From positions 1 to 34,220 of the forward strand of contig JALVTH010000039.1 of the NCBI GenBank assembly GCA_027036015.1: a stretch of 34,220 nt of DNA, read 5' to 3'. The stretch comes from Campylobacteraceae bacterium. Its GTDB lineage: Bacteria; Campylobacterota; Campylobacteria; Campylobacterales; Sulfurovaceae. Shown in pieces: positions 7 to 34,146 of this stretch (positions are counted from its first letter, which is position 1; each line of letters starts with the position of its first letter). The notes under the pieces are model-generated. The model saw only the letters and a program-made list of their open reading frames with translations. It did no database searches and was not told where the DNA came from. The translations under genes were made by a program, and so were the position numbers.

Positions 7-36
7 AAGCTAAAGAGATTAAATCTCTTCAGCTTT
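7..36. terminator. Bidirectional terminator-like hairpin after aclA
   Basis: Two arms of about 14 bases (7-20 and 22-35) pair with one mismatch. The stem overlaps the aclA stop codon (19-21). On the plus strand it is followed by a short T run, so it could also end a rightward gene lying outside the window. Confidence 0.5.
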
Positions 37-1836
37 TTGAACGTCATATAAAATATCATCCCACGGATGGCGATACATTGGCATTGCAAGGCGTTTTTCA
101 TCTAAGATATGTCCAATAAATCCAATAGTTCTACCTAAAATGAAGAATGCATTTAAAGTTCCAGATTTAATAAACTCATCAATTTCTTTTTCTCTATAAC
201 CTAAAGCTCTCCACATATCAACCATTAAAATACCAATAGTTCCATCAACATTTAAAATCAAGTTATCTTTTTTCGCAGTTGTTTCTTTTTCTACTTCTAA
301 TGCATAATCAAGCAATGAAGTTGATGGAAAAAATTCTGCTGCATATTTTTTAAGACCTTCAACTCTTTTATCTGGATTTCTAACTGATTTAATTCTATGC
401 CCAATTCCTGGGATTGGAATGCCTTGTTTTTTCATATATGCAACAAATTCTTTTGGAGACATATTATTATCGTATGCATATTTAAAATAATACGCTGCAC
501 CATCAATCGCGCCACCAAATCTTGGTCCAATTGTAAGTAAACCAGTAACCAAGCTCTCAACTACGCTTTTCCCCGCTCTTGCAGTAACTTTTGCGTTATG
601 TGCTCCAGATACTGCTGGTCCATGGTCAGCAACGGTTTTTAATACAGTTTCAATAAAATCAACCGCCCATCTTGGATAAACTTTTTTAAACCATAGAAGA
701 CTAATGACATCACCAATAGTTTTACCAGTATCAGGTGTTGCAACTGAACTAATAGGGAACCCTGCATATGTTGCTTCTTCTCCTCTATCATCACTAATAG
801 TACAAATAAAGTTTTTCGGTCTTCTATATTTTGGAATTTCTGGAACTGCTGGCTCTTCAATTTCGCTAATAACGCCTTCTTTTTTAAGTTTGTTATATAC
901 TTCGTTAATTACTTTTGGAAGATCGTTAAAACTTGTTGGAACATGAATTCCAGCTTCTCTCATTGCCGCATTTTTAGCCTCAGCTGTTTCTCTTTCTGCA
1001 TTAGCACTTGCACCAGCATGTCCAAATTGAACGCCGCTGCTAAAATGTTTAGCAATAGTTCCAATACACCATGCAATAATTGGTTTTTTAATTTTCCCTG
1101 ATTTTACGGCTTCGATAACTTTATATTCTTCAATACCACCAACTTCACCAAGTAAAATCATATATTTAACGTCTGGATTTTGCTCCATTCTTAATAAATG
1201 ATCAATAAATACGCTTCCTACATATCTATCACCACCAATAGCAACACCTTCTGCAATTCCATCTGCATTAAGTGCAATTATGTTTGAGAGTTCGTTAAAA
1301 AGCCCTCCACTTCTTGTTACAAGACCACAGCTTCCAGGTCTGTGAAGTTTACTTTTTACAATATTTTCAATCGTTCCACCAATATTTGCTACTTTAAAAG
1401 CACCTGGACTAATTGCACCAACGGTTGCTGGACCAATAATAGTAACACCTTCTTTTCTTGCGCGATGATTCATAATTCGAGCCAATCTTTCTGGAATACC
1501 TTCGGCGGTAATCATAATAACTCTAAAACCACCAATATCAAGTGCTTCCATTGTAACATCATAAGCTGTTCTAAAAGAAGCAAAGTTTAACAAAACATCT
1601 GCATTTGGATGAGCTGCTTTTGCCTCTTTAGTGCTTCTATAAACTGGTACCATAATTTCATCGGGACCATAAAAAAACTTTTCAAATTTATTTGAACTTG
1701 TTGGAGCAACGATTGCTGCAACTGATGGCTTTTCTCTTTGAATTACATAATCGTAATCAAGCATTCTTTGAATTGCACTTTTATTATTGTTCCAAAAAAT
1801 TGCTTGCGTATCTTTTGTAAATAATCTATTTTCCAT
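19..1836 (-). CDS. aclA: ATP-citrate lyase, large (alpha) subunit AclA
   Basis: The 605-aa product is the large subunit of two-gene ATP-citrate lyase, which cleaves citrate with ATP and CoA to acetyl-CoA and oxaloacetate, a key step of the reductive TCA cycle. The N-terminal half (about 1-330) is succinyl-CoA-synthetase alpha-like: it has a Rossmann CoA-binding region and the GHAGA motif whose His273 is the expected phosphohistidine. The C-terminal part (about 340-600) is citrate-synthase-like, with PGIGHRIKS near 475. The length matches the Chlorobium-type large subunit (about 608 aa). The ATG shares one base with the aclB stop (TAATG), so the two are co-transcribed and probably translationally coupled. 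The family assignment is firm; direct use in autotrophy is inferred from the pathway. Confidence 0.97.
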   Translation of the reverse strand: MENRLFTKDTQAIFWNNNKSAIQRMLDYDYVIQREKPSVAAIVAPTSSNKFEKFFYGPDEIMVPVYRSTKEAKAAHPNADVLLNFASFRTAYDVTMEALDIGGFRVIMITAEGIPERLARIMNHRARKEGVTIIGPATVGAISPGAFKVANIGGTIENIVKSKLHRPGSCGLVTRSGGLFNELSNIIALNADGIAEGVAIGGDRYVGSVFIDHLLRMEQNPDVKYMILLGEVGGIEEYKVIEAVKSGKIKKPIIAWCIGTIAKHFSSGVQFGHAGASANAERETAEAKNAAMREAGIHVPTSFNDLPKVINEVYNKLKKEGVISEIEEPAVPEIPKYRRPKNFICTISDDRGEEATYAGFPISSVATPDTGKTIGDVISLLWFKKVYPRWAVDFIETVLKTVADHGPAVSGAHNAKVTARAGKSVVESLVTGLLTIGPRFGGAIDGAAYYFKYAYDNNMSPKEFVAYMKKQGIPIPGIGHRIKSVRNPDKRVEGLKKYAAEFFPSTSLLDYALEVEKETTAKKDNLILNVDGTIGILMVDMWRALGYREKEIDEFIKSGTLNAFFILGRTIGFIGHILDEKRLAMPMYRHPWDDILYDVQKAEEI

Positions 1837-3158
1837 TATTTGTCTCCTTTATCAGCTTCGATAGCCATTCTAACGATGTCTGTAATGTGAGTTTCTGGTC
1901 CATAAACTTCAATGTATAGCCCAAGTTTTTCTGCAGCTTCTTTAATGTCTTTTAAACCTTTTTCATAATTTGGCCCGCCGCGTCTTACGTAGATTTTTAC
2001 GTTGTGTTCTTTTAATTTATCTGCATATTTTTCAAGTGCGTTAATAATTCCAGTAAAAGTTTTAGCAACATCAGTAAAGTTTGCAATTGCCCCACCAATA
2101 ATTAAAATTTTGCCTCTTGGATCTTTATGGCGAGTCATTAAATCAAAAATAGTTTCAGCATAAAACTGTGTCTCAGCAGTAGTTGGCCCACCTGAATATT
2201 CACCATAATTTGCTAAATCTTTAACTCCTGCTAAATCAGCGATGGTATCGGCATAAACAACACTTGCTCCACCACCTGCAACCATTGTCCAAATTCTACC
2301 CATTGGATTTAAGATAGTAAGTTTAAGCGAAGCTCCACTTTTTGCATCTGCTTCTGCAATAGCTTGTTCTTCTGGAGATTTTTCTTCCATACCAAAAGGA
2401 GTTGGAAACTCAATATCTCCCCACTTATCTTTCATTAAGAAGCCTGCTGTATCATCAAGGCGCGCAACTAAATCCAAAATTGCCATTTCATTATTATCAA
2501 GCATTACAATTGGGTTAATCTCAAGGTAAGCAAAGTGCAAATCTCTAAAAAATTTATAAAATGCAAACGCAAATGCAGCAAATTCAGCTTGTTTATCTTC
2601 TGGAATTTCACTTGGAATATTGGCTTTAATTGCTTTTTCAATATCGCTGTCACTTAAATCGATTGGAATTCTAACTTCATTTACTTTATCCCAATTCTCT
2701 TCTACTTCCATACCACCTTCGGCACTAAGATACAATACATCATCTTCTCCAACGGTCGTTGCCGCAATGTAATATTCTTGATCTTGAGTATGAGGCGTAA
2801 AAGGTTCTACAATAAAATGAGTTAGTCTTCCAGTTTGTCCAGAAAGAAGGGTTATATCGTGGCTTCTTTTCTCGTCAATCCATTTTGCGGCATCTTCAAG
2901 TGTTACGTCTCCAGGCTTATTTACTTTAAATAAAACAAGGCCGTTTTTCCCTCTTTTTCCAAAAAGCATATCAGGCTTTGCAACTAAAGGCTCTTGTTTA
3001 AGCCATTCAAAACCATGCTCATTTGCTTTTTGTTTTAACTCTTCTCCACTCGTTACTAAAACTGATTTAAAAGGATAGTGGAATCCATCAAAATATTCAT
3101 TCCAATGTTTAGCAAATAGTGCTTTACCATCATATTCGCGTATTGCTCTTTGAGCCAT
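1836..3158 (-). CDS. aclB: ATP-citrate lyase, small (beta) subunit AclB
   Basis: The 440-aa product is the ATP-grasp subunit partnering AclA. The N-terminal region (about 1-240) is ATP-grasp, containing YLEINPIVM, the metal/nucleotide-site signature shared with succinyl-CoA synthetase beta. The C-terminal region (about 270-435) is the ligase/CoA-binding-type domain, with a GGGASVVYAD stretch and a GGAIANFTDV loop. The ATG at 3158 has a strong AAGGAG ribosome-binding site (3164-3170 on the complement). The gene is first in the aclB-aclA operon. An AT-rich leader of about 110 bases upstream holds a possible -10 (3187-3192), but no convincing -35. At 440 aa it is somewhat longer than the roughly 400 aa of green sulfur bacterial AclB. 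Confidence 0.96.
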   Translation of the reverse strand: MAQRAIREYDGKALFAKHWNEYFDGFHYPFKSVLVTSGEELKQKANEHGFEWLKQEPLVAKPDMLFGKRGKNGLVLFKVNKPGDVTLEDAAKWIDEKRSHDITLLSGQTGRLTHFIVEPFTPHTQDQEYYIAATTVGEDDVLYLSAEGGMEVEENWDKVNEVRIPIDLSDSDIEKAIKANIPSEIPEDKQAEFAAFAFAFYKFFRDLHFAYLEINPIVMLDNNEMAILDLVARLDDTAGFLMKDKWGDIEFPTPFGMEEKSPEEQAIAEADAKSGASLKLTILNPMGRIWTMVAGGGASVVYADTIADLAGVKDLANYGEYSGGPTTAETQFYAETIFDLMTRHKDPRGKILIIGGAIANFTDVAKTFTGIINALEKYADKLKEHNVKIYVRRGGPNYEKGLKDIKEAAEKLGLYIEVYGPETHITDIVRMAIEADKGDK

Positions 3159-8878: not shown

Positions 8879-8930
8879 AATAATTATTGTCATAAAATTG
8901 TTTAAAATTGAAATTTTAGGGGGAAATTTA

Positions 8931-11900
8931 ATGTTTCGTATTTTTAAAATCTTTTTAACTGGAATCTTTTTAGTAATTTTAACAGCTTGCGGTGGGAGCA
9001 GTGGTAATGGAACATCACATAAAAATCCAGTGACTAAATTGGATAAAGAAGCACCTTATGTTCCTAAAATAGTCTCTGTTTCTTCTTTAGGTAGCGATTC
9101 AATACATATACAGTGGTTGCCTGTATCGGATAATATTACACCAGATGACAAAATTAAGTATAAAATATATGCTTCTACAACTAAAAATATTATTCCCAAC
9201 TCTGCTAATCTTAAAAAAGAATTAATAGCTACTGATGATGCAAATATTACAGGACTTAAGTCTAATACAATGTATTATATAAGAGTTGTAGCAGAAGATG
9301 AAAACAATAACACTGCTTGGAGTGAAATAGAGACTATAAAAACAAACTCTATTGATACACAAATCTCTAGTAATAAAATAGCAGAAACTAATAAAACTAT
9401 TAATTCTAATGAAACAGAAGTGGATAAAAATACTACTCAGGGTGAAATTATATTTAATGCAGACCCAAATAAAGGTTTCTTAAAAAAAGTAGAAAAAATA
9501 GAAACTAAAAATGGTAAGAAAATAGCAATTCTCAAAGATGCTACTATAGAAGATGTATATAAAAAATATGAATATAATACAAAAATAAAGCTAATCGATC
9601 CTACACATACTGTAACTACAAATAATCCAAGCAATTCACATAATAAGTTTTCTAAACTAATGAAAATAAGTTTAGGTAATAATGTTAAGTATAGCCGTGT
9701 TTGGAAAAATGGAATGATTATTACAGAAAATAAAACTGACGCGAGAGTTATTAGTAGCCCTAGTAAAAGAGCAAAACAAATTGGCTACACATACTCTAAT
9801 GATACTAAAACAGTATCAAATGATTTAGGGGAAATATCTATACCTACAAAAAACATTGTAGAGGCTGGACATGAAATTGAAATTCCTATAAAATTTAGCC
9901 AAAATTTAGATTATGAATTGAAAGTAGAAAATGATGATTATAATAACAAATGCTATGTGTATAGATGTAAAAATATAAATCCTTCTGAAGTAAAAATAGA
10001 TTCTGTAAAAATTAGTAAATTTATAAATGCAAATAATAGAAGTAGTAAACCTAGAATAAAGCTAAAGAACGGCAAATATTATTTGGTCTGGAAACCTGCA
10101 AATAGCGATGCTTCAGATGAACCGCATGAGTTTACACTTTCTGTGATTTTAGCACCTTATTATGGGCAACAAAAAATTGAGGTATATAATGAAAATATTT
10201 CTATAAAAGGGAAAATATATGTTTCTAAAGGAAAAGTAGAGCCAAGTAAAAACAAAGTTCAAAATGTAACTTTCAGTTCAAGTGCAGGATTTAAGGTAAA
10301 AAATACTTTTACAATGGGATTTGAACCTACTATATATTTATCTGAAAAGTTTGAGGATATAAAAAAAGAAGGCAATAGTAAGGATATTAAAGTTACTGGA
10401 AGTATTGTATTGAATCAAACATTAAATATAAATGCTTATGCAAATACTTCACTGGAGCAAACTAAAAATATTTGGAGTAGAGGTTTTGTAAAAGTTGTAT
10501 TTGTCGGAGAGGTTCCAGTTTTATTAAAAGGAACAATGGCAGTAGATATAAAATTTGAGGGTAGTGCAAGTGCAAATATAGATATTGTAGAGAAATTTAT
10601 AAATAAATTTGATTTAACATTAGGTTTTAATATTAATCATACAAAAGATGGTAAATACAAAATAACACCTATTAAAGAGTTTAATAAAAGTTATTCTTTA
10701 ACTATAGATGGAAAAGCAGAAGGAAAGTTATCAGCTAAAATTACTATAATTCCAGATTTAAAATTAAAAGTTTATGAATTAGTTGCTACAAGAGTTAGAT
10801 TGCTACCTTATATGTATGGTGATGTTGATATAGATGGCTTCTTTAATTATAGAAATAGTAGTAACGAAAATAGTTCATTTGATGCAGATTATAAATTTAA
10901 TAATATAGAAGCAGGTGTAGGTGCAGATTTAAGTTTATTTATAGGTCGTGGCTGGGGCAGAACATGGGTTGATGATTGGATTCAATTAACATATCCCGAA
11001 AATGCAGAAGTAGATGATGTATCTACACATAAAATTTTTCATATAGTAAAACAGACACCATTAATTAAATTACCGACATTAAGTAGTAGTTATGATATAT
11101 CAAAATTGCCTCCTAAAAATATTGATAACAGAGCAATTTGGATAAAAGGAAATTATAGTAATGAAAGTGGAGTAATAGAGACTTCTAAATTTAAGTCTTG
11201 GGATAAAGCAAAAATTGTAAATAACGAGAATCTAGATGCCCAAATTATAAAAAGTAATACTGATGGCGGATATTGGTTAATCCCTGGGAAAGAGGGAGAG
11301 TATAATATAAGATTAATAGGTCATTCTAAATTAGGAAGATGGGCAAGACAATATACAACAGTAACTTTTGCATTGAACGATGATAATAACAATGGCATAT
11401 TAGATTATTGGGAAAATAGGTATCCTAAACCTGCTAATATGCCTGAAGAGTTATACTTAAAAGCTTTTCAAAATGGTGAAGATCCAAAAACTATAAAAAT
11501 AGAAGATCCTGCAAAAGAAGATGATAATCAAAACCATAAACCTAATATAGATATTAAAGTATCTAAACATTTAGTTTATGAAGGAGAAGAAGTTACATTA
11601 GATGCATCTAATAGTAGTGATAAAGATGGCGATAATTTAACATTTGAGTGGAGTGATGCCGAATATTGGTTAGGAAATAAACCGATTATAAAAAAGAAGT
11701 TTAAAAAAGGTGTTCATAAAATTAAATTAGTTGTATCTGATGGTAAAGATAAATCTAGCAAAACAGTTGTTGTTTTAGTAAAAAGAAAAATAAAAGAAAA
11801 TACTAATAAAGCAATTGTAGATGGTGTTAGTCCAACTGTTGCTTACGAAGATAAACCAACAGTGTTTACTATTACAGGTTCTAATCTGGATAGTAATATA

Positions 11901-14900
11901 AGTGGTTATTTAACTAATAGTAATGATTGTAAAAAAATATCTTCAACAAAAGAGAATATTAAAATTTCTTGCACACCTAAATTAAATGGAAGTAATTCGA
12001 CATATAAAAACTTTATTATTACCAATTATGATGGGGAAAAGTTATATAAGATATATATTAAGAGAAATAATGTAGTAGAATATCAGGGTTCCACTAAGCC
12101 TTATGATACGTGTCACTCTTTCTATGAAAAAGGATGCGAAGCTACTGCTCTGCCTGATAAAAGTTATACAAAAAGCTGGACTTTCAAAAAATCAACAAAT
12201 AAGAAATTTAAAAACTTAAGAGTAGTTGCTATAAATGAAGATCCTAAAGTTGTTGTTCACATTGATAAAGTAGAAGAGAATAAAAATATTATTACTGTAA
12301 CAATGACGTTAACTGTTTCTAAAGATGCTATTGGAATTCATAAAGGAAACTTTAAACTAGTGGATGAGTATGGAGATATTGTTTATAAAGCTACAGGAAG
12401 AAGCTCATATTTTTGGTATATGCTAAATGTTCAGCCAGAATTGCCTAAGACAATAACTTTAAATAAAATAGAAGACGGCGTAGAAGGCGATGTATTTACA
12501 TTTAAAGCTCAATTATCTGATTCTTTAGATAATGCTTATAGCGTAAAATTGAGTCTTGGCGATGGCAGTGGTGGTTGGTTGAAACCGATTGATATGATTG
12601 CAAATAATAATAGAACACTATTCGCATTAGCCAAAAAAATAACTACAGCAGGTGATAGAGTTTATCGTGTAGCTATTTTTAATGGTAACACTAGAATATC
12701 TGATTGGATACAAGGCAGTTATAAAGTTTATGAAAAATCTAAAATTCCTAAAAATGTAAAAGTTAGGGAAAATAATGATGGTTCTGTTACTGTCCAATGG
12801 GATCCTGTAAAAGATGCACCATCTTATACGCTTATGTATTCACTTGATGGTGCATATTATGGTAATTACAAAACAATCAAAAATATTAAAGAAACCTATT
12901 ATACATTTAATAGTGACACTTTTTTAGATAATGAAATAGTTTATTTTTCTGTCGGTGTTACAGGAGGAAAACAATCTGAAAAAGTAAGTATTATTTATAA
13001 AAAAAATAATAATATATATTATAATAATCTTGCAGGTAAAACTTTATATGCTTTAACTAAATATAATATAGTAGAGTTTAATTTTAATAAAGATTTAACC
13101 AGTTTTATTGTTGATTCAAATGAAACGATTACAATAAAAACTAAACTTGACAATAATGGTCTAAAATTATTAGGTAAAAAAAATTATTACTTAATTATCA
13201 AGAAAGTTAATCAAAACTATTTAGATGTAGAATATGATGAGTTAAGCGACAGTGGTGCAATTATTAAAACAGAGAAGAAATTTAAACTATATTTTGACGA
13301 AAAAGATGTTCCTATAATTACTGGTGATTTAGCTAAGATAATTGTAGGTAAAACATTCTATCAGCATTGTAAAGATGATAGCGGCAATGTAGGAATAGAT
13401 AGTATAACTTTCCAAAGAGACGGTAAAATTAAAATAGAAGAACATAATGGAAACACTTTCTATATTGAATACACAATTAACGATAATGTAATTACAACAA
13501 AAGAAAAAGATGATAATGAATATAAAACTCATACATTTGTAAAAGAGACTAATGAATATATACAGTTAAATGAAGAGAATGGAGAAGTTACAAAGCTATA
13601 TAAAACATATCAGGCAGCACAAAATGCACCGGTAGATGATTGCGGCGGGGATGATGGAGAAACAGAATACAATCCTAGAGGAAAAATAACTTACTTGGGA
13701 GCAGATTATCAAATTGTTAAAGCTCATTCTTATATGTCTAATATGGACAACAATGAAGTTCAAATTTTTCTTCAAACAGATAAAAATAATCCTCATGCAA
13801 AAGGAGGATTGCAATTTACTTTAAAGAAAAGTTTTGCAAAAGATAATGAAAGTTTCAAATCTCTTTTACGGAACAAAAAAATATTGTATATAAATAGAAA
13901 CAATATAATAGATTATGGTATTCAGTTTATGGCAAAAAACAACACTCCTACTGGTGTTACTTGGAGAAGTGGTAGCATAAAATTAATATGGCAAAGAGAT
14001 AATATATTTACAATAGAACAAAATGGAGCCTCTTTAGGCATAAAAGATTTTGAAAATAATGCAATAAATATGATTTATTTTACTAAAACTTATATTCAAT
14101 GGACAGATAAAAATTATAAAAATAATGATCCTGAAGAAAAAGTAAGTGGATTGGTTTCTGGGCATGTTGATTTTAGCGATTATGGCTATGTTCCTTCTGA
14201 TGCTTGGGTTGGAATTACACCTTTAAGATTCCAAAATGATGCTTCTGGATGGAATAGGCTTACTTGTAAAATAGATTCAAATGGTAATTTTGGAAATGAA
14301 TGTTACATAGATCATAATGTACAAGGAATGAAGCAAGCACTACAAGATAGAAATGAAAAATTCCAAGTAGTAGTATTCAAAAATACAAAAGAACCTGAAA
14401 AACATGATTGGAATGGTGGCGAAGATGTATATAAATATGTTGGAAGTGAAGAAGATTATGGAAGTTGGAAAAGTATAAAAGTTAATAAAGAAGATTATCA
14501 AGATAGAAGTGATGAAAAAGATACAGATAGTGATTCTAAAAAAGTTTCAGACCTTGTTTCTGGTCATTTTAATTTTGTAGATGAAAATGGTAGCAAAGTA
14601 TCTATCCCATCTAATCTTTGGGTTAGAATTACTCCGCAGGAGTATCAAGTAGAAGGTCACTGGACTGGGGTTAATTGTAAAATAGACAGCAATGGCAACT
14701 TTGGCAATGAATGCTATATACACCGTTCAGAAGAAGAGATGCGTAGTAAATTTAATAGTAATCATAAAGGAACTTATCAGGTAGTAATTTATCAAGAGAC
14801 TACTGGTGATACACATTATAACAGAGAAGAAGAAGGTTTTGCATGTATAAATAACTGCGAGGATGTTCGATACAACGCTTGGAAAAATGCTACTGCGAGA

Positions 14901-15206
14901 GTTTTTAATAACAGTGGAGGACACTCAAGTTCTGATAATACTCCAGTAGATCCAAATTTAACAGTATCTATTAGCTTATCGGGCAATACTTTGACAGCAA
15001 TTTTTAATAAAGATATGGAACATACTTATAGTGTAAGAGGGGTAGGTAACTATCATATATCTAGAAGTTATTGGGTTAATGATAAAATATTTAAGATGGA
15101 TTTTGATTATTATGATAGTAATGTAACCATAAGATTGGAAGCATCAGGTTTTATTACTAAAGAAGGTAAAAGATTATCAGAAGATGTTACTTTTACATTT
15201 CCATAA
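8931..15206 (+). CDS. Giant multidomain surface lipoprotein (about 2,091 aa)
   Basis: The product has a lipoprotein signal peptide ending LTAC, with Cys20 as the lipidation site. Visible domains by residue: fibronectin type III-like (about 41-139); a long beta-rich region (about 150-800) of unrecognised type; a Ca-binding-like loop DDNNNG (about 817); a PKD-like domain (about 871-953) with DASNSSDKDGD; an IPT/TIG-like domain (about 961-1046); a second fibronectin type III domain (about 1272-1359); lipocalin-like strands (about 1368-1560); a tandem pair of about 120-aa modules (from 1737 and 1871); and a C-terminal Ig-like domain (about 2010-2091). An upstream TTG at 8898 is possible, but AGGGGG at 8918-8923 supports ATG 8931. 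This architecture suggests a surface-exposed adhesive or carbohydrate-binding protein. No catalytic motif was recognised. Confidence 0.88.
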   Translation: MFRIFKIFLTGIFLVILTACGGSSGNGTSHKNPVTKLDKEAPYVPKIVSVSSLGSDSIHIQWLPVSDNITPDDKIKYKIYASTTKNIIPNSANLKKELIATDDANITGLKSNTMYYIRVVAEDENNNTAWSEIETIKTNSIDTQISSNKIAETNKTINSNETEVDKNTTQGEIIFNADPNKGFLKKVEKIETKNGKKIAILKDATIEDVYKKYEYNTKIKLIDPTHTVTTNNPSNSHNKFSKLMKISLGNNVKYSRVWKNGMIITENKTDARVISSPSKRAKQIGYTYSNDTKTVSNDLGEISIPTKNIVEAGHEIEIPIKFSQNLDYELKVENDDYNNKCYVYRCKNINPSEVKIDSVKISKFINANNRSSKPRIKLKNGKYYLVWKPANSDASDEPHEFTLSVILAPYYGQQKIEVYNENISIKGKIYVSKGKVEPSKNKVQNVTFSSSAGFKVKNTFTMGFEPTIYLSEKFEDIKKEGNSKDIKVTGSIVLNQTLNINAYANTSLEQTKNIWSRGFVKVVFVGEVPVLLKGTMAVDIKFEGSASANIDIVEKFINKFDLTLGFNINHTKDGKYKITPIKEFNKSYSLTIDGKAEGKLSAKITIIPDLKLKVYELVATRVRLLPYMYGDVDIDGFFNYRNSSNENSSFDADYKFNNIEAGVGADLSLFIGRGWGRTWVDDWIQLTYPENAEVDDVSTHKIFHIVKQTPLIKLPTLSSSYDISKLPPKNIDNRAIWIKGNYSNESGVIETSKFKSWDKAKIVNNENLDAQIIKSNTDGGYWLIPGKEGEYNIRLIGHSKLGRWARQYTTVTFALNDDNNNGILDYWENRYPKPANMPEELYLKAFQNGEDPKTIKIEDPAKEDDNQNHKPNIDIKVSKHLVYEGEEVTLDASNSSDKDGDNLTFEWSDAEYWLGNKPIIKKKFKKGVHKIKLVVSDGKDKSSKTVVVLVKRKIKENTNKAIVDGVSPTVAYEDKPTVFTITGSNLDSNISGYLTNSNDCKKISSTKENIKISCTPKLNGSNSTYKNFIITNYDGEKLYKIYIKRNNVVEYQGSTKPYDTCHSFYEKGCEATALPDKSYTKSWTFKKSTNKKFKNLRVVAINEDPKVVVHIDKVEENKNIITVTMTLTVSKDAIGIHKGNFKLVDEYGDIVYKATGRSSYFWYMLNVQPELPKTITLNKIEDGVEGDVFTFKAQLSDSLDNAYSVKLSLGDGSGGWLKPIDMIANNNRTLFALAKKITTAGDRVYRVAIFNGNTRISDWIQGSYKVYEKSKIPKNVKVRENNDGSVTVQWDPVKDAPSYTLMYSLDGAYYGNYKTIKNIKETYYTFNSDTFLDNEIVYFSVGVTGGKQSEKVSIIYKKNNNIYYNNLAGKTLYALTKYNIVEFNFNKDLTSFIVDSNETITIKTKLDNNGLKLLGKKNYYLIIKKVNQNYLDVEYDELSDSGAIIKTEKKFKLYFDEKDVPIITGDLAKIIVGKTFYQHCKDDSGNVGIDSITFQRDGKIKIEEHNGNTFYIEYTINDNVITTKEKDDNEYKTHTFVKETNEYIQLNEENGEVTKLYKTYQAAQNAPVDDCGGDDGETEYNPRGKITYLGADYQIVKAHSYMSNMDNNEVQIFLQTDKNNPHAKGGLQFTLKKSFAKDNESFKSLLRNKKILYINRNNIIDYGIQFMAKNNTPTGVTWRSGSIKLIWQRDNIFTIEQNGASLGIKDFENNAINMIYFTKTYIQWTDKNYKNNDPEEKVSGLVSGHVDFSDYGYVPSDAWVGITPLRFQNDASGWNRLTCKIDSNGNFGNECYIDHNVQGMKQALQDRNEKFQVVVFKNTKEPEKHDWNGGEDVYKYVGSEEDYGSWKSIKVNKEDYQDRSDEKDTDSDSKKVSDLVSGHFNFVDENGSKVSIPSNLWVRITPQEYQVEGHWTGVNCKIDSNGNFGNECYIHRSEEEMRSKFNSNHKGTYQVVIYQETTGDTHYNREEEGFACINNCEDVRYNAWKNATARVFNNSGGHSSSDNTPVDPNLTVSISLSGNTLTAIFNKDMEHTYSVRGVGNYHISRSYWVNDKIFKMDFDYYDSNVTIRLEASGFITKEGKRLSEDVTFTFP
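14139..14924 (+). repeat. Tandem protein module encoded in the giant lipoprotein
   Basis: Two copies begin at 14139 (residue 1737) and 14541 (residue 1871). Both open with KVS-x-LVSGH and share the identical 15-residue stretch CKIDSNGNFGNECYI. Both then carry a QVV-strand and end near a Trp-Lys (SWKS / AWKN) segment. The nucleotide sequences differ at many third positions, so the duplication is not recent. Confidence 0.85.
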
Positions 15207-30428: not shown

Positions 30429-31556
30429 GTGCAACAAGAAGTAACATTAATACTCTTAGCAGCTGGCAATTCAACGCGCTTTAACTTACCCGTTAAGAAG
30501 CAATGGCTCAAAATTGGCACCAAGCTATTGTGGCAATTTGTAGCAGATAAATTTAATAGTGTTACAAAGTTTACTCAAACTATTATAGTAATGAATGAAA
30601 ATGAAATAAAATTAGCTAAACGCATTGCACCTGAGTATCTTTTTGTAAAAGGAAGCAGCAAATCTCGCCAAGAATCAGTTGCAAATGCTCTAAAAGAAGT
30701 AAAAACCCCTTTTGTTTTAATTAGTGATGTTGCAAGAGCCTGTATCGAAAAAGAATTAATCGAAAATCTTTTACAAAATAAAAAAAGTAACTTTTGCATA
30801 GCACCTGCAATTAAAGTTAGTGATACTTGCTATTTTGATGGTAAACCAATTGATCGCGAAAAAGTGCTTCGAATTCAAACCCCTCAGCTTTGTGATACCA
30901 ATACACTGAAAAAAGCCCATGCATTAGGTGAATTTAGTGATGAAAGCTCTGCTTTTTATGCTTTCAATAAAAATGTTTTATTTGTACAAGGTTCAAATAA
31001 AGCACATAAACTAACCTATAAAGAAGATTTAGCACTTCTATCTTGTCTAAGAGGACCTCTCATTGAGCAAAGAAGCGGAATTGGTATTGATATACACCCT
31101 TTTGATGCAAATAAAAAGATGTATCTTTGCGGAGTTGAAATAAAAAGCGATATTGGATTTAAAGCCCATAGCGATGGAGATGTAGCAATTCATGCCATCA
31201 TTGATGCTTTGCTTGGCGCAGCCGCGCTGGGAGATATTGGAGAATTTTTCCCAGATAATGATAAAAAGTATAAAAACGCCGATTCAAAAGAGTTACTCAA
31301 AGAAATTGTTACTTTGATAACTCAAATTGGATATGAAATTGTCAATATTGATATAAGTATCATTGCACAATTTCCAAAAATCACCCCTTATAAAGAAGAA
31401 ATGATAAAGACTTTGGCTTCTTTATTAAATATTTCACCAAGCAAAATCAACATTAAAGCTACAACAGCAGAAAAACTTGGCTTTATAGGCCGAAAAGAAG
31501 GGGTTCTCGTGCAAGCTATTGCAACATTAAAAACTTTTAGATGGGATGAGGCATGA
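30429..31556 (+). CDS. ispDF: Bifunctional IspD/IspF
   Basis: The 375-aa fusion catalyses two non-consecutive steps of the MEP isoprenoid pathway: CTP-dependent formation of CDP-methylerythritol (IspD) and cyclisation to MEcPP (IspF). The IspD part (about 1-210) has LLAAGNSTRF at its N-terminus and the nucleotide-binding VKKQW. The IspF part (about 215-375) has GIDIHPF, HSDGD and DIGEFFPD, containing the zinc-binding Asp and His residues, plus KATTAEKLGFIG. The fusion is typical of Campylobacterota and some Alphaproteobacteria. The start is GTG 30429, with AAGGG 5 bases upstream. Its stop overlaps the next start by 4 bases (ATGA). Confidence 0.97.
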   Translation: MQQEVTLILLAAGNSTRFNLPVKKQWLKIGTKLLWQFVADKFNSVTKFTQTIIVMNENEIKLAKRIAPEYLFVKGSSKSRQESVANALKEVKTPFVLISDVARACIEKELIENLLQNKKSNFCIAPAIKVSDTCYFDGKPIDREKVLRIQTPQLCDTNTLKKAHALGEFSDESSAFYAFNKNVLFVQGSNKAHKLTYKEDLALLSCLRGPLIEQRSGIGIDIHPFDANKKMYLCGVEIKSDIGFKAHSDGDVAIHAIIDALLGAAALGDIGEFFPDNDKKYKNADSKELLKEIVTLITQIGYEIVNIDISIIAQFPKITPYKEEMIKTLASLLNISPSKINIKATTAEKLGFIGRKEGVLVQAIATLKTFRWDEA

Positions 31557-32434
31557 AAGTAATCATTATTGATAACGAACTTTATTTGGCTCAAAGTATT
31601 GCAAGTAAATTAGAGCAGTTTAATTACGAAACAGAAGTTTACTCTTCAATTAAAGATGCAATGAGTGCAGAAGGCGATATCTACTTGCTCTCAACCACAA
31701 TTCCAAATCAAGATCCAATCAAGTTAATTCAAAAGCGCAAAAACAAAATTATTATTTTAATGGTAAGTTATATCAATAATGATACTGTAGGAAACCCTTT
31801 AAAAGCTGGCGCAAACGATTACATTCAAAAGCCTTTCGTTATTGAAGAGCTTGTTCGAAAGATTGAGCACTTTTACGAATATAATAGATTAAAAAAGCAA
31901 AATCAATTCTACAACGATTTATTAAACTCAATGTTTAAAGAAATTGACATCACAATTGATGTTAAAAAGCTCAAAATCCCATTAACGATTTATACCAATT
32001 ATCAAAGAGTTGCAGATAAGGTAGCCATTGATTTATCGGCAAAATATAAAAAGAATCTTTTATTTATCGATTTACAATGTGATGGGTGGGAAGAGAAGCT
32101 CAAAAAGCTTGATAGTAGAAAAATTGCGTATCTTTCACGCATCGATAAGTTAAAAAAAGATGACAGAATGAAATTATTTGATTTAATTAATGGAAAACAG
32201 TTTATAATATCTTCATTAGATGAGAATATCGATACGCCTTTTGAAAAGGTAACGATCAATAGTTCAAATAAAATGTATGACCAAAACAATATTTTAACAA
32301 TTAACGAATATGTCCAATATATCATTAAAAAATTCCAACATCAATATCCAGATACGGAACTGAGTAAAAAACTTGGAATATCAAGAAAAAGTTTGTGGGA
32401 AAAAAGGCGAAAATTTCAACTCTTTAAAAAATAG
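31553..32434 (+). CDS. HP1021-family orphan atypical response regulator
   Basis: The 293-aa protein has a receiver-like N-terminal domain (1-115) and a C-terminal Fis-type HTH (about 265-293, LSKKLGISRKSLWEKRRKF). The usual phosphoacceptor Asp is replaced by Ser47 (YLLST); Asp7 and Lys93 (QKPF) remain. It therefore should not be switched by phosphorylation. The HP1021 orphan regulator of Helicobacter shares the Ser replacement, length and position after ispDF; it binds oriC and redox- and growth-related genes. The middle (about 130-250) is weakly reminiscent of a degenerate AAA domain but has no Walker A. It overlaps ispDF by 4 bases. No sensor kinase is adjacent. Confidence 0.88.
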   Translation: MKVIIIDNELYLAQSIASKLEQFNYETEVYSSIKDAMSAEGDIYLLSTTIPNQDPIKLIQKRKNKIIILMVSYINNDTVGNPLKAGANDYIQKPFVIEELVRKIEHFYEYNRLKKQNQFYNDLLNSMFKEIDITIDVKKLKIPLTIYTNYQRVADKVAIDLSAKYKKNLLFIDLQCDGWEEKLKKLDSRKIAYLSRIDKLKKDDRMKLFDLINGKQFIISSLDENIDTPFEKVTINSSNKMYDQNNILTINEYVQYIIKKFQHQYPDTELSKKLGISRKSLWEKRRKFQLFKK

Positions 32435-32449
32435 TTTATAGGAGAAGAT

Positions 32450-33640
32450 TTGAGTTTTTCTAAAAGAAATGATACGCTCTATATTGATACCGAAGCTCTT
32501 TCAACCTTAGCCTTAATTCAAGAGGGCTTACTCTATCCAGTAACTGGGCTAATGAATCAAAAAGAAGCAAAAGAAGTAGATGAAAGCAGACGCTTTAAAG
32601 GACTTCCTTTTCCTTTTTCTTTTACACTCTCTCCTCGCGGCAAAAGAAACGAAGAAAATATCAAGCAATTTAAAAAAGGGCAAAAAGTTACTTTAATTAA
32701 CAATAATAAAGAAGTTGGATACATTATTGTTGAAGAAGTCTTTCCTATCGATCCAAAAGAGCGTATCTTTAACATTTATGGCACCAAAGATCTCTCCATC
32801 CCAGCTGTTAATAGAGCCTATAAACGCCTTGGAAATTGGGCTGTGAGTGGAAAATATCACGTTGAATATCCTTTAATTAAAAAAACCAAACAAGCACTCA
32901 AGCTTCACATAGAACAAACAGGAGCTCAAAAAATTTCAGCCATCATGCTTGGAGCAAATCCACTAACTAGGGCACAAGAGCGCGTTATTCGCGATGCTTT
33001 AACCTTTAGTGATTTATTGATAATTTTTTTGATCAAACCATTTACCAAAGAGGGAATGGATTATGAAATTAGAAAACACACACTTGATACTTTTGTAAGC
33101 AATTACTTACCAAGTAAAAAGGTTATTGTTATTCCATTTGAAAATAGCTATATTTTTGCAGGATATAACGAACTTATTTTAGACGCACTTGTAGCCAAAA
33201 ATTATGGAGCGCACAACTTAATCGTTGGGAAAAATCACAGAGCTCTTGGAATGGTTTATGCACAAGGTAAAGAAAATACCATTTTTGATACCTTAAAAGA
33301 TATAGGAATTAATATTATTCTAAATCAAGAGTACGTCTATTGCAATGTTTGCCGAACTTTAGTAACAACTGAAACTTGCCCTCACGGACAACATCATCAT
33401 ATCCACTATCATAGTGCTCCTATTATGGAGCTTATAAATAGCGGTATTTTGCCACCTTCGATTTTGGTTCGAAAAGAGATTTCTGCTTATATTATGGCTT
33501 CACTCTTTCCAAATCGTTTCAAAAATCTCCAACAAACCTATGATATGTTAATTCCAGGAAGTGGGCTTTTAGAAGATAAAAACGAAGAAGAATTTTATAT
33601 TAAACTTATGAAACTTTATCAAACTACTTCTCTTACATAA
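32450..33640 (+). CDS. ATP sulfurylase-like protein lacking the HxxH catalytic motif
   Basis: The 396-aa protein aligns in outline with dissimilatory-type sulfate adenylyltransferase: an N-terminal PUA-like domain, a catalytic nucleotidyltransferase domain, and a C-terminal Cys cluster (Cys298, Cys301, Cys310 with His312) as in the zinc-containing type. However, the QxRNPxHxxHE motif reads LGANPLTRAQE (167-177): both His are replaced (Thr173, Gln176) and Gln and Arg are lost. The later VGRDHAG motif reads VGKNHRALG (259-267). Normal sulfate activation is therefore doubtful. The start is TTG 32450, with AGGAG 5 bases upstream. I recall a homologue in the same position next to the HP1021-like gene and pgpA in Campylobacter. 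Confidence 0.82.
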   Translation: MSFSKRNDTLYIDTEALSTLALIQEGLLYPVTGLMNQKEAKEVDESRRFKGLPFPFSFTLSPRGKRNEENIKQFKKGQKVTLINNNKEVGYIIVEEVFPIDPKERIFNIYGTKDLSIPAVNRAYKRLGNWAVSGKYHVEYPLIKKTKQALKLHIEQTGAQKISAIMLGANPLTRAQERVIRDALTFSDLLIIFLIKPFTKEGMDYEIRKHTLDTFVSNYLPSKKVIVIPFENSYIFAGYNELILDALVAKNYGAHNLIVGKNHRALGMVYAQGKENTIFDTLKDIGINIILNQEYVYCNVCRTLVTTETCPHGQHHHIHYHSAPIMELINSGILPPSILVRKEISAYIMASLFPNRFKNLQQTYDMLIPGSGLLEDKNEEEFYIKLMKLYQTTSLT

Positions 33641-33648
33641 GGGTAAAA

Positions 33649-34146
33649 ATGCAAAAGCTCTTTTTAACTTTTTTTGGTGCAGGATATAGCAAAATTGCTC
33701 CAGGAACTGTTGGTAGCATTGTGGCAATGCCAATTGGGCTTTTGATACTTTATTATTTAGGGCTTAATTCATTAGTCTCAATTATTTTAGTTGGAAGTAT
33801 AATTGCTATTTTAGAAATTAATAAATTTGAAAAAAATGGCGGTGCGCATGATGATAAAACTATCGTCATTGATGAAGCATTAGGAATTTGGCTAACAATG
33901 GCCTTTACTTTTGGAATTTATCCATATATTTACAAAGGTCCTTATGGATTTTATATTGCTTTAATTTTGAGTTTTGCTTCTTTTAGACTCTTTGATATTT
34001 GGAAGCCTTCTACTATTGGAAAAATAGACAAAGAAGCAAAAGGCGGCCTTGGAGTTGTAGGAGATGATTTACTTGCAGGAATAGCTGCAGGTATGCTAAA
34101 TCTTGTAATATTTAAAATTTTGGCTTTAGTTATTGGATATTTTTAA
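33649..34146 (+). CDS. pgpA: Phosphatidylglycerophosphatase A
   Basis: The 165-aa inner-membrane enzyme dephosphorylates phosphatidylglycerophosphate to phosphatidylglycerol. It has about four membrane segments. Family motifs are present: GAGYSKIAPGTVGS at the N-terminus, VIDEALGIWLTM in the middle, FDIWKPSTIGKIDKEAKGGLGVVGDDLLAGI towards the end (given here only as markers FDIWKPS and GDDLLAG). The Asp and Glu residues in DEA and GDD are the likely metal ligands. It starts 8 bases after the ATP-sulfurylase-like gene and closes the ispDF run as seen in this window. Confidence 0.95.
   Translation: MQKLFLTFFGAGYSKIAPGTVGSIVAMPIGLLILYYLGLNSLVSIILVGSIIAILEINKFEKNGGAHDDKTIVIDEALGIWLTMAFTFGIYPYIYKGPYGFYIALILSFASFRLFDIWKPSTIGKIDKEAKGGLGVVGDDLLAGIAAGMLNLVIFKILALVIGYF

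Follow-up and report, generated by a model that had tools for sequence, protein, structure and literature searches.

The window (the whole stretch of DNA analysed, 34,220 nucleotides) carries a same-strand run of genes in which an intact open reading frame for an ATP sulfurylase-like protein lies between cemR and pgpA (Table 1). The frame is preceded closely by an AGGAG sequence and is separated from cemR by 15 bases and from pgpA by 8 bases. Pfam analysis of the translated frame identified an ATP-sulfurylase domain (PF01747) at 165.8 bits against a cut-off of 24.3 and a PUA_2 domain (PF14306) at 64.5 bits against a cut-off of 27. An AlphaFold model of the protein (mean pLDDT 83, pTM 0.82) found its best matches among ATP sulfurylases, which are the best solved structures for this protein both by sequence and by fold. 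The Foldseek match to 8a8d, the zinc-type ATP sulfurylase of Methanothermococcus thermolithotrophicus, had an E value of 5.1e-25 and places the model in the Sat fold; structural superposition gave a Z of 29.6 to 8a8d and a Z of 30.4 to the Thermus thermophilus enzyme 1v47 (rmsd 3.0 over 331 residues). The likeness extends over model residues 1-353, and the PUA-like domain I and the Cys3-His zinc site are common to all of these proteins. The Pfam scores and the fold match led to the rejection of chance or a wrong frame as the origin of the ORF, and they bear out an earlier statement, made in a preliminary description of this DNA, that the fold markers remain.

Table 1 Features of the cemR-pgpA locus, in window coordinates
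Feature	Position	Strand	Remarks
ispDF	30429..31556	+	First gene of the same-strand run; upstream in 144/151 loci
cemR (HP1021/Cj1608-type atypical response regulator)	31553..32434	+	Directly upstream; adjacent in 156/163 loci
ATP sulfurylase-like gene	32450..33640	+	396 aa, TTG start; sole PF01747 match of the genome
Domain I, PUA-like, residues 8-136	32471..32857	+	
Domain II, nucleotidyltransferase-like, residues 144-290	32879..33319	+	Lower edge from the Pfam match, upper edge approximate
Motif 1, LGANPLTRAQE, residues 167-177	32948..32980	+	In place of QTRNPxHxxHE
Motif 2, GKNHRALG, residues 260-267	33227..33250	+	In place of GRDHAGVG; ribose-contacting Gly and His kept (roles from the available text of PMC3779200)
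Zinc knuckle and His cluster, C298-x2-C301-x8-C310-P-H-G-x-H-H-H-x-x-Y-H321	33341..33412	+	Candidate functional core
Place of the lost SGTxxR, residues 321-326	33410..33427	+	Arg replaced by Met326
C-terminal tail, residues 369-396	33554..33637	+	Conserved in the family; absent from 6 canonical Campylobacterota sulfurylases
pgpA	33649..34146	+	Directly downstream; adjacent in 140/164 loci

Despite the shared fold, the protein does not score as a typical sulfurylase. It fell below the NCBIfam cut-offs for sopT (129.5 against 323) and PRK04149 (165.6 against 387), and all eight relatives scanned were likewise far under these cut-offs (76-145 bits on sopT). Two canonical sulfurylases used as controls scored 279 and 328 bits on sopT; one cleared the cut-offs of both models and the other fell narrowly short of both. 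In three relatives from one family, f3 (L166:1719-2627, L169:1350-3191 and L170:2290-3399), the PUA-like domain has been lost, has shrunk or has given way to low-complexity sequence, and domains II and III are retained. Elsewhere in the window, positions 19-3158 hold two ATP-citrate lyase type genes by Pfam, pointing to a reductive TCA cycle, and positions 8898-15206 hold a 2102-residue ORF with a fibronectin type III domain and weaker matches to PKD_4 and the purple acid phosphatase N-terminal domain.

The neighbour counts of Table 1 derive from 165 loci, duplicates included, with denominators restricted to loci having enough flanking sequence, and they agree with the earlier proposal that the gene is kept between the regulator and pgpA. 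The same description had termed the regulator essential. This is not borne out by the available text of PMC11334517, in which CemR controls energy metabolism and its orthologs were deleted in Campylobacter jejuni and A. butzleri. The proximity of the two genes raises the alternative that the protein works with CemR in a regulatory or scaffolding capacity, as a pseudoenzyme that senses a nucleotide or a metal and is translated beside this energy and redox regulator. The adjacency itself, the function of CemR and the position of the family gene's start codon, which lies inside the end of cemR in several of 10 loci compared, speak for such a partnership. The family gene stands apart from cemR at five loci (L111, L112, L114, L115 and L117), and all five of the genomes behind them encode CemR elsewhere. 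Moreover, a search of 16 genomes for CemR returned a match of at least 226 bits in 14, including 7 of the 9 searched genomes that have no family member, and these findings make a CemR partnership improbable. The other two genomes, G387 and G007, gave generic regulator matches only (51 and 49 bits); these near-complete genomes lack both CemR and the ATP sulfurylase-like family.

No partner gene for the protein emerged from the neighbourhoods and the CemR co-occurrence search of 16 genomes. At four loci belonging to one family, f6 (L111, L112, L115 and L117), ispDF, cemR and pgpA are all absent nearby. By eye, a small lipoprotein-like ORF follows the gene at all four; Pfam found nothing in the two of these ORFs that were scanned. 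Upstream, Pfam identifies a divergent gene of L111 as QueH, and that of L115 is similar by eye.

Residues of sulfate activation

In the available text of PMC3779200, sulfate is held by Gln199, Arg201 and Ala299 of the ATP sulfurylase, the pyrophosphate side is formed by Asn202, His205, His208 and Arg365, and the ribose is contacted by Gly295, Arg296 and His298. The corresponding positions were counted in 153 distinct family sequences, consisting of 54 relatives from a contig scan, 98 from whole genomes and the window protein. These sequences are a chosen sample and not all 305 genomes that carry the family; ten duplicate pairs were merged to give 154, from which the fragment L055 was dropped. 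The sulfate-binding Gln of QxRN occurs in none of the 153 sequences under either gap placement, and the sulfate-binding Arg likewise occurs in none, with an Arg one position earlier in two. Both residues are present in all six canonical Campylobacterota sulfurylases. The GRDHAG motif is also found in 6/6 canonical enzymes and in 0/153 family members, the window protein reading GKNHRA. The alteration of this second motif had been noted before and is borne out, with G260 and H263 preserved; the ribose-side His is retained in 143 of the family sequences. At the place of SGTxxR the pyrophosphate-site Arg survives in 10/153 sequences and SGT in none, and the six family sequences compared do not preserve the GxxKxxD loop. 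The absence of the sulfate Gln and Arg, together with the loss of most SGTxxR arginines, constitutes a family-wide argument against sulfate chemistry. The window protein differs from 8a8d and 1v47 in lacking the sulfate Gln/Arg, GRDHAG and SGTxxR, and its family differs further in having a His cluster and a C-terminal tail.

The HxxH motif presents a different picture. In the window the first motif contains L167, A169, T173, Q176 and E177, so that HxxH reads TxxQ, and the replacement of the catalytic histidines described earlier is correct for this protein. It does not define the family. The 153 sequences comprise 75 with HxxH, 71 with NxxH and 3 with TxxH, along with single instances of NxxQ, HxxQ, HxxL and TxxQ, the last being the window alone; the second His is thus present in 149, and the first position is occupied by His (77), Asn (72) or Thr (4). 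Judged from the sequences, TxxQ is a change local to the window lineage, because the closest relatives carry HxxH (L001 and L002) or NxxH (L003-L006). A single base separates the Thr codon ACT from Asn, and likewise the Gln codon CAA from His. The four members that have lost the second His are scattered over the tree, and parsimony on a tree of 150 sequences counted four changes at H176 and seven at H173.

The remaining genes of sulfate use were sought in the window genome, which is rated 100% complete and contains no second PF01747 match. No APS kinase was found in this genome, the best AprA match scored 23.7 bits against a cut-off of 641.75, and no PAPS reductase was present, the two PAPS_reduct matches being TilS and MnmA. 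With a second sulfurylase, an APS kinase, a PAPS reductase and AprA all missing from the genome, it is very unlikely, as far as gene content and residues can indicate, that the window protein activates sulfate. Among the six canonical Campylobacterota sulfurylases, two (G161 and G121) have an APS-kinase match within 30 bases, that of G161 being under the cut-off and interrupted. If the protein were a genuine ATP sulfurylase whose motifs have relaxed, or one running in reverse, this would account for the fold, the PUA-like domain and the zinc site, all of which are common to true sulfurylases. Such an enzyme would have to work without the Gln and Arg lost from every family sequence read, in a genome lacking the downstream enzymes, and the low sopT scores of 8/8 members would need explaining, although one canonical control also fell short; we consider this reading highly improbable. 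The earlier suggestion of a selected function other than sulfate activation is supported by the loss of the sulfate Gln/Arg, combined with the retention of conserved sites described below.

The zinc/His region and constraint across the protein

The Cys/His metal site, which had been reported to remain, is indeed present as C298, C301, C310 and H312. All 153 family sequences contain C298, C301, C310, P311, H312, G313 and, in motif 1, E177. The adjoining histidines are nearly as constant, with H315 in 152, H316 in 149, H317 in 149 and H321 in 117 of the 153. Parsimony on the 150-sequence tree, from which L171, L166 and L052 were left out, assigned 1.0 changes per site to the ten zinc/His cluster positions versus 17.7 for domain III, and 0 of 10,000 random sets were as low. 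Constraint is strongest in the zinc/His region, which adjoins the former pyrophosphate loop. H316 changed four times, as often as H176. The Cys3-His site also occurs in canonical enzymes, where a role in thermal stability has been suggested (available text of PMC10322725). Model pLDDT is below 50 at residues 315-318, so the model does not fix the location of the His cluster. The C-terminal tail contains Y383, which is invariant in the 162 rows that extend to it within a conservation alignment of 164 rows (L054, L057 and L172 left out and the six canonical sequences kept apart). A search for a conserved alternative active site had been suggested; the alignment revealed a zinc knuckle and His cluster that are invariant or nearly so, and their service as such a site is what we infer.

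Constraint is also visible at the old active site. Eleven domain II active-site positions averaged 16.5 steps against 27.7, with 1.3% of random domain II sets as low, and H176, G260 and H263 were among the slower sites. These slow positions fit an old site that is still catalytic in most members, insofar as substitution counts reflect function. They would favour an alternative in which the family is a nucleotidyltransferase with a new acceptor, acting through the classical (H/N/T)xxH site, and in which the window lineage has drifted, its activity being weakened or lost. Enzymes of the TxGH type have Thr in the first motif place, a precedent for the Thr of the window, and the second His persists in almost all of the family. 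Domains II-III of the window model also match the CoaD-like phosphopantetheine adenylyltransferase structure 6cck_B (Z 13.7, rmsd 3.3, 155 residues) and contain the Rossmann-like nucleotidyltransferase core. To our knowledge, CoaD has neither a PUA-like domain nor a zinc/His cluster. In comparison with the HxGH/TxGH nucleotidyltransferases, the second motif His is replaced by Gln176 in the window. The near disappearance of the SGTxxR Arg, the absence of the GxxKxxD loop from the six sequences compared, the dispersed losses of the second His and the lack of any other sign of relaxed constraint in the window all weigh against this alternative, which we regard as possible though rather unlikely.

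The substitution of both HxxH histidines might instead suggest that the window gene is decaying and functionless. The frame is open, and 41 of the 42 positions with at least 95% conservation are retained in the window; Q176 is the exception. Where the window departs from its sisters, most of the differences fall on the third codon position (0.30, 0.16 and 0.58 for the three positions in the comparison with L001). In 21 three-way rate tests (18 distinct, because L006 and L088 are identical), the window was never the faster sequence beyond 3.84, and the single test over this value (4.46) had the relative faster than the window. A pseudogene was consequently rejected, and with the family present in 305 of 397 genomes, decay is an extremely improbable account of the gene.

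Distribution of the family and its possible role

The contig scan recovered 56 relatives of the window protein. A search of 397 whole Campylobacterota genomes matched 306, of which G121 has a canonical sulfurylase only, leaving 305 that carry the family. At least five genomes encode both a family protein and a canonical sulfurylase; at most four candidates per genome were scored, so the canonical counts are a lower bound. Behind the canonical sulfurylase of one f3 genome (L157:2325-5615) come a pyruvate-kinase-barrel protein and a protein resembling sodium/hydrogen exchangers. When 31 selected family members were placed in a tree with 15 other PF01747 proteins, the family formed one clade with a support of 83 and a branch of 1.18. 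Two of the 15 outsiders, encoded on Phaeobacter (L202) and Ensifer (L205) plasmids, have odd first motifs with His for Gln, and the Phaeobacter protein also lacks the first His of HxxH.

A phage or mobile origin of the gene was rejected: no relative occurred among 88 pattern matches in viral contigs, and phages gave no match to the family. Plasmid searches returned 26 matching records, of which 15 were listed and 10 retrieved; among those listed there was one family member, from Sulfurovum mangrovi, and the remaining listed matches were 22-33% identical. Four of the nine PF01747 genes retrieved from plasmids of other phyla adjoin cysC or a PAPS reductase. The Sulfurovum mangrovi protein LN246_RS15180, named a sulfate adenylyltransferase in RefSeq, is 52% identical to the window protein and is encoded in the order ispDF-regulator-gene-pgpA; it has NxxH, unlike the TxxQ of the window. 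Its frame (L199:2262-3440, in a record of 395 kb that is described as a plasmid) contains an interruption close to the C-terminus, through a sequencing error or a real truncation.

Because the sulfate residues have been lost and yet the same neighbours have been kept, the protein that databases call ATP sulfurylase in Campylobacter and its relatives very probably does a job other than sulfate activation. It is most likely a nucleotide-binding protein that has been repurposed, with the zinc/His region as its selected site. The explanation that we favour over the others, while giving it slightly less than an even chance, is a neofunctionalised ATP sulfurylase-fold protein of Campylobacterota whose work is performed at that region. 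The protein has retained the ATP sulfurylase fold, the ribose-side Gly and His and the Cys3-His metal site; it has lost the sulfate Gln and Arg, and most of the sequences read have also lost the pyrophosphate-site Arg; and it has the invariant or near-invariant Pro-His-Gly-x-His-His-His-x-x-Tyr cluster and a conserved C-terminal tail lacking in the canonical sulfurylases of the phylum. The old cleft may bind an adenine nucleotide, alone or within a larger molecule. The selected work would then fall to the metal/His region in domain III, at the cleft mouth, and would consist in sensing a ligand other than sulfate or in a transfer to such a ligand. If HxxH is now auxiliary, the window lineage could turn to TxxQ without losing constraint elsewhere. 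The bootstrap support of only 83 for the split between the family and other PF01747 proteins counts against this explanation. In a more specific version, the HxxH cleft has ceded catalysis or ligand sensing to the domain III zinc/His site, and the protein is a new Campylobacterota core enzyme or sensor that is tied to CemR, is essential in C. jejuni and goes unrecognised behind the name sat. This version is speculative and appears to us doubtful.

The C. jejuni gene for the 'sulfate adenyltransferase' Cj1609 occupies the same place, following Cj1607 (ispDF) and Cj1608 (cemR), and would on gene order rather than on sequence be a family member; its named activity is unsupported by the family residues. 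According to the available text of PMC10077673, Cj1609 belongs to the core genes of four species but is essential in just two, C. jejuni and C. coli, and the main text of that report does not mention cj1608 or cj1610. The essentiality of Cj1609 could reflect a polar effect on pgpA. A reconstruction of Campylobacterales metabolism lists a sat gene but lacks the other steps of sulfate activation (available text of PMC4674564); the family may explain this lone sat, the placement of that gene in the family being conjectural. A literature search, with subscription journals largely outside its scope, found no study of the family's function. A gene reported as essential, from a family spread over 305 of 397 genomes, bears a name for which its residues give no support, and the natural HxxH, NxxH and TxxQ members make its function directly testable.
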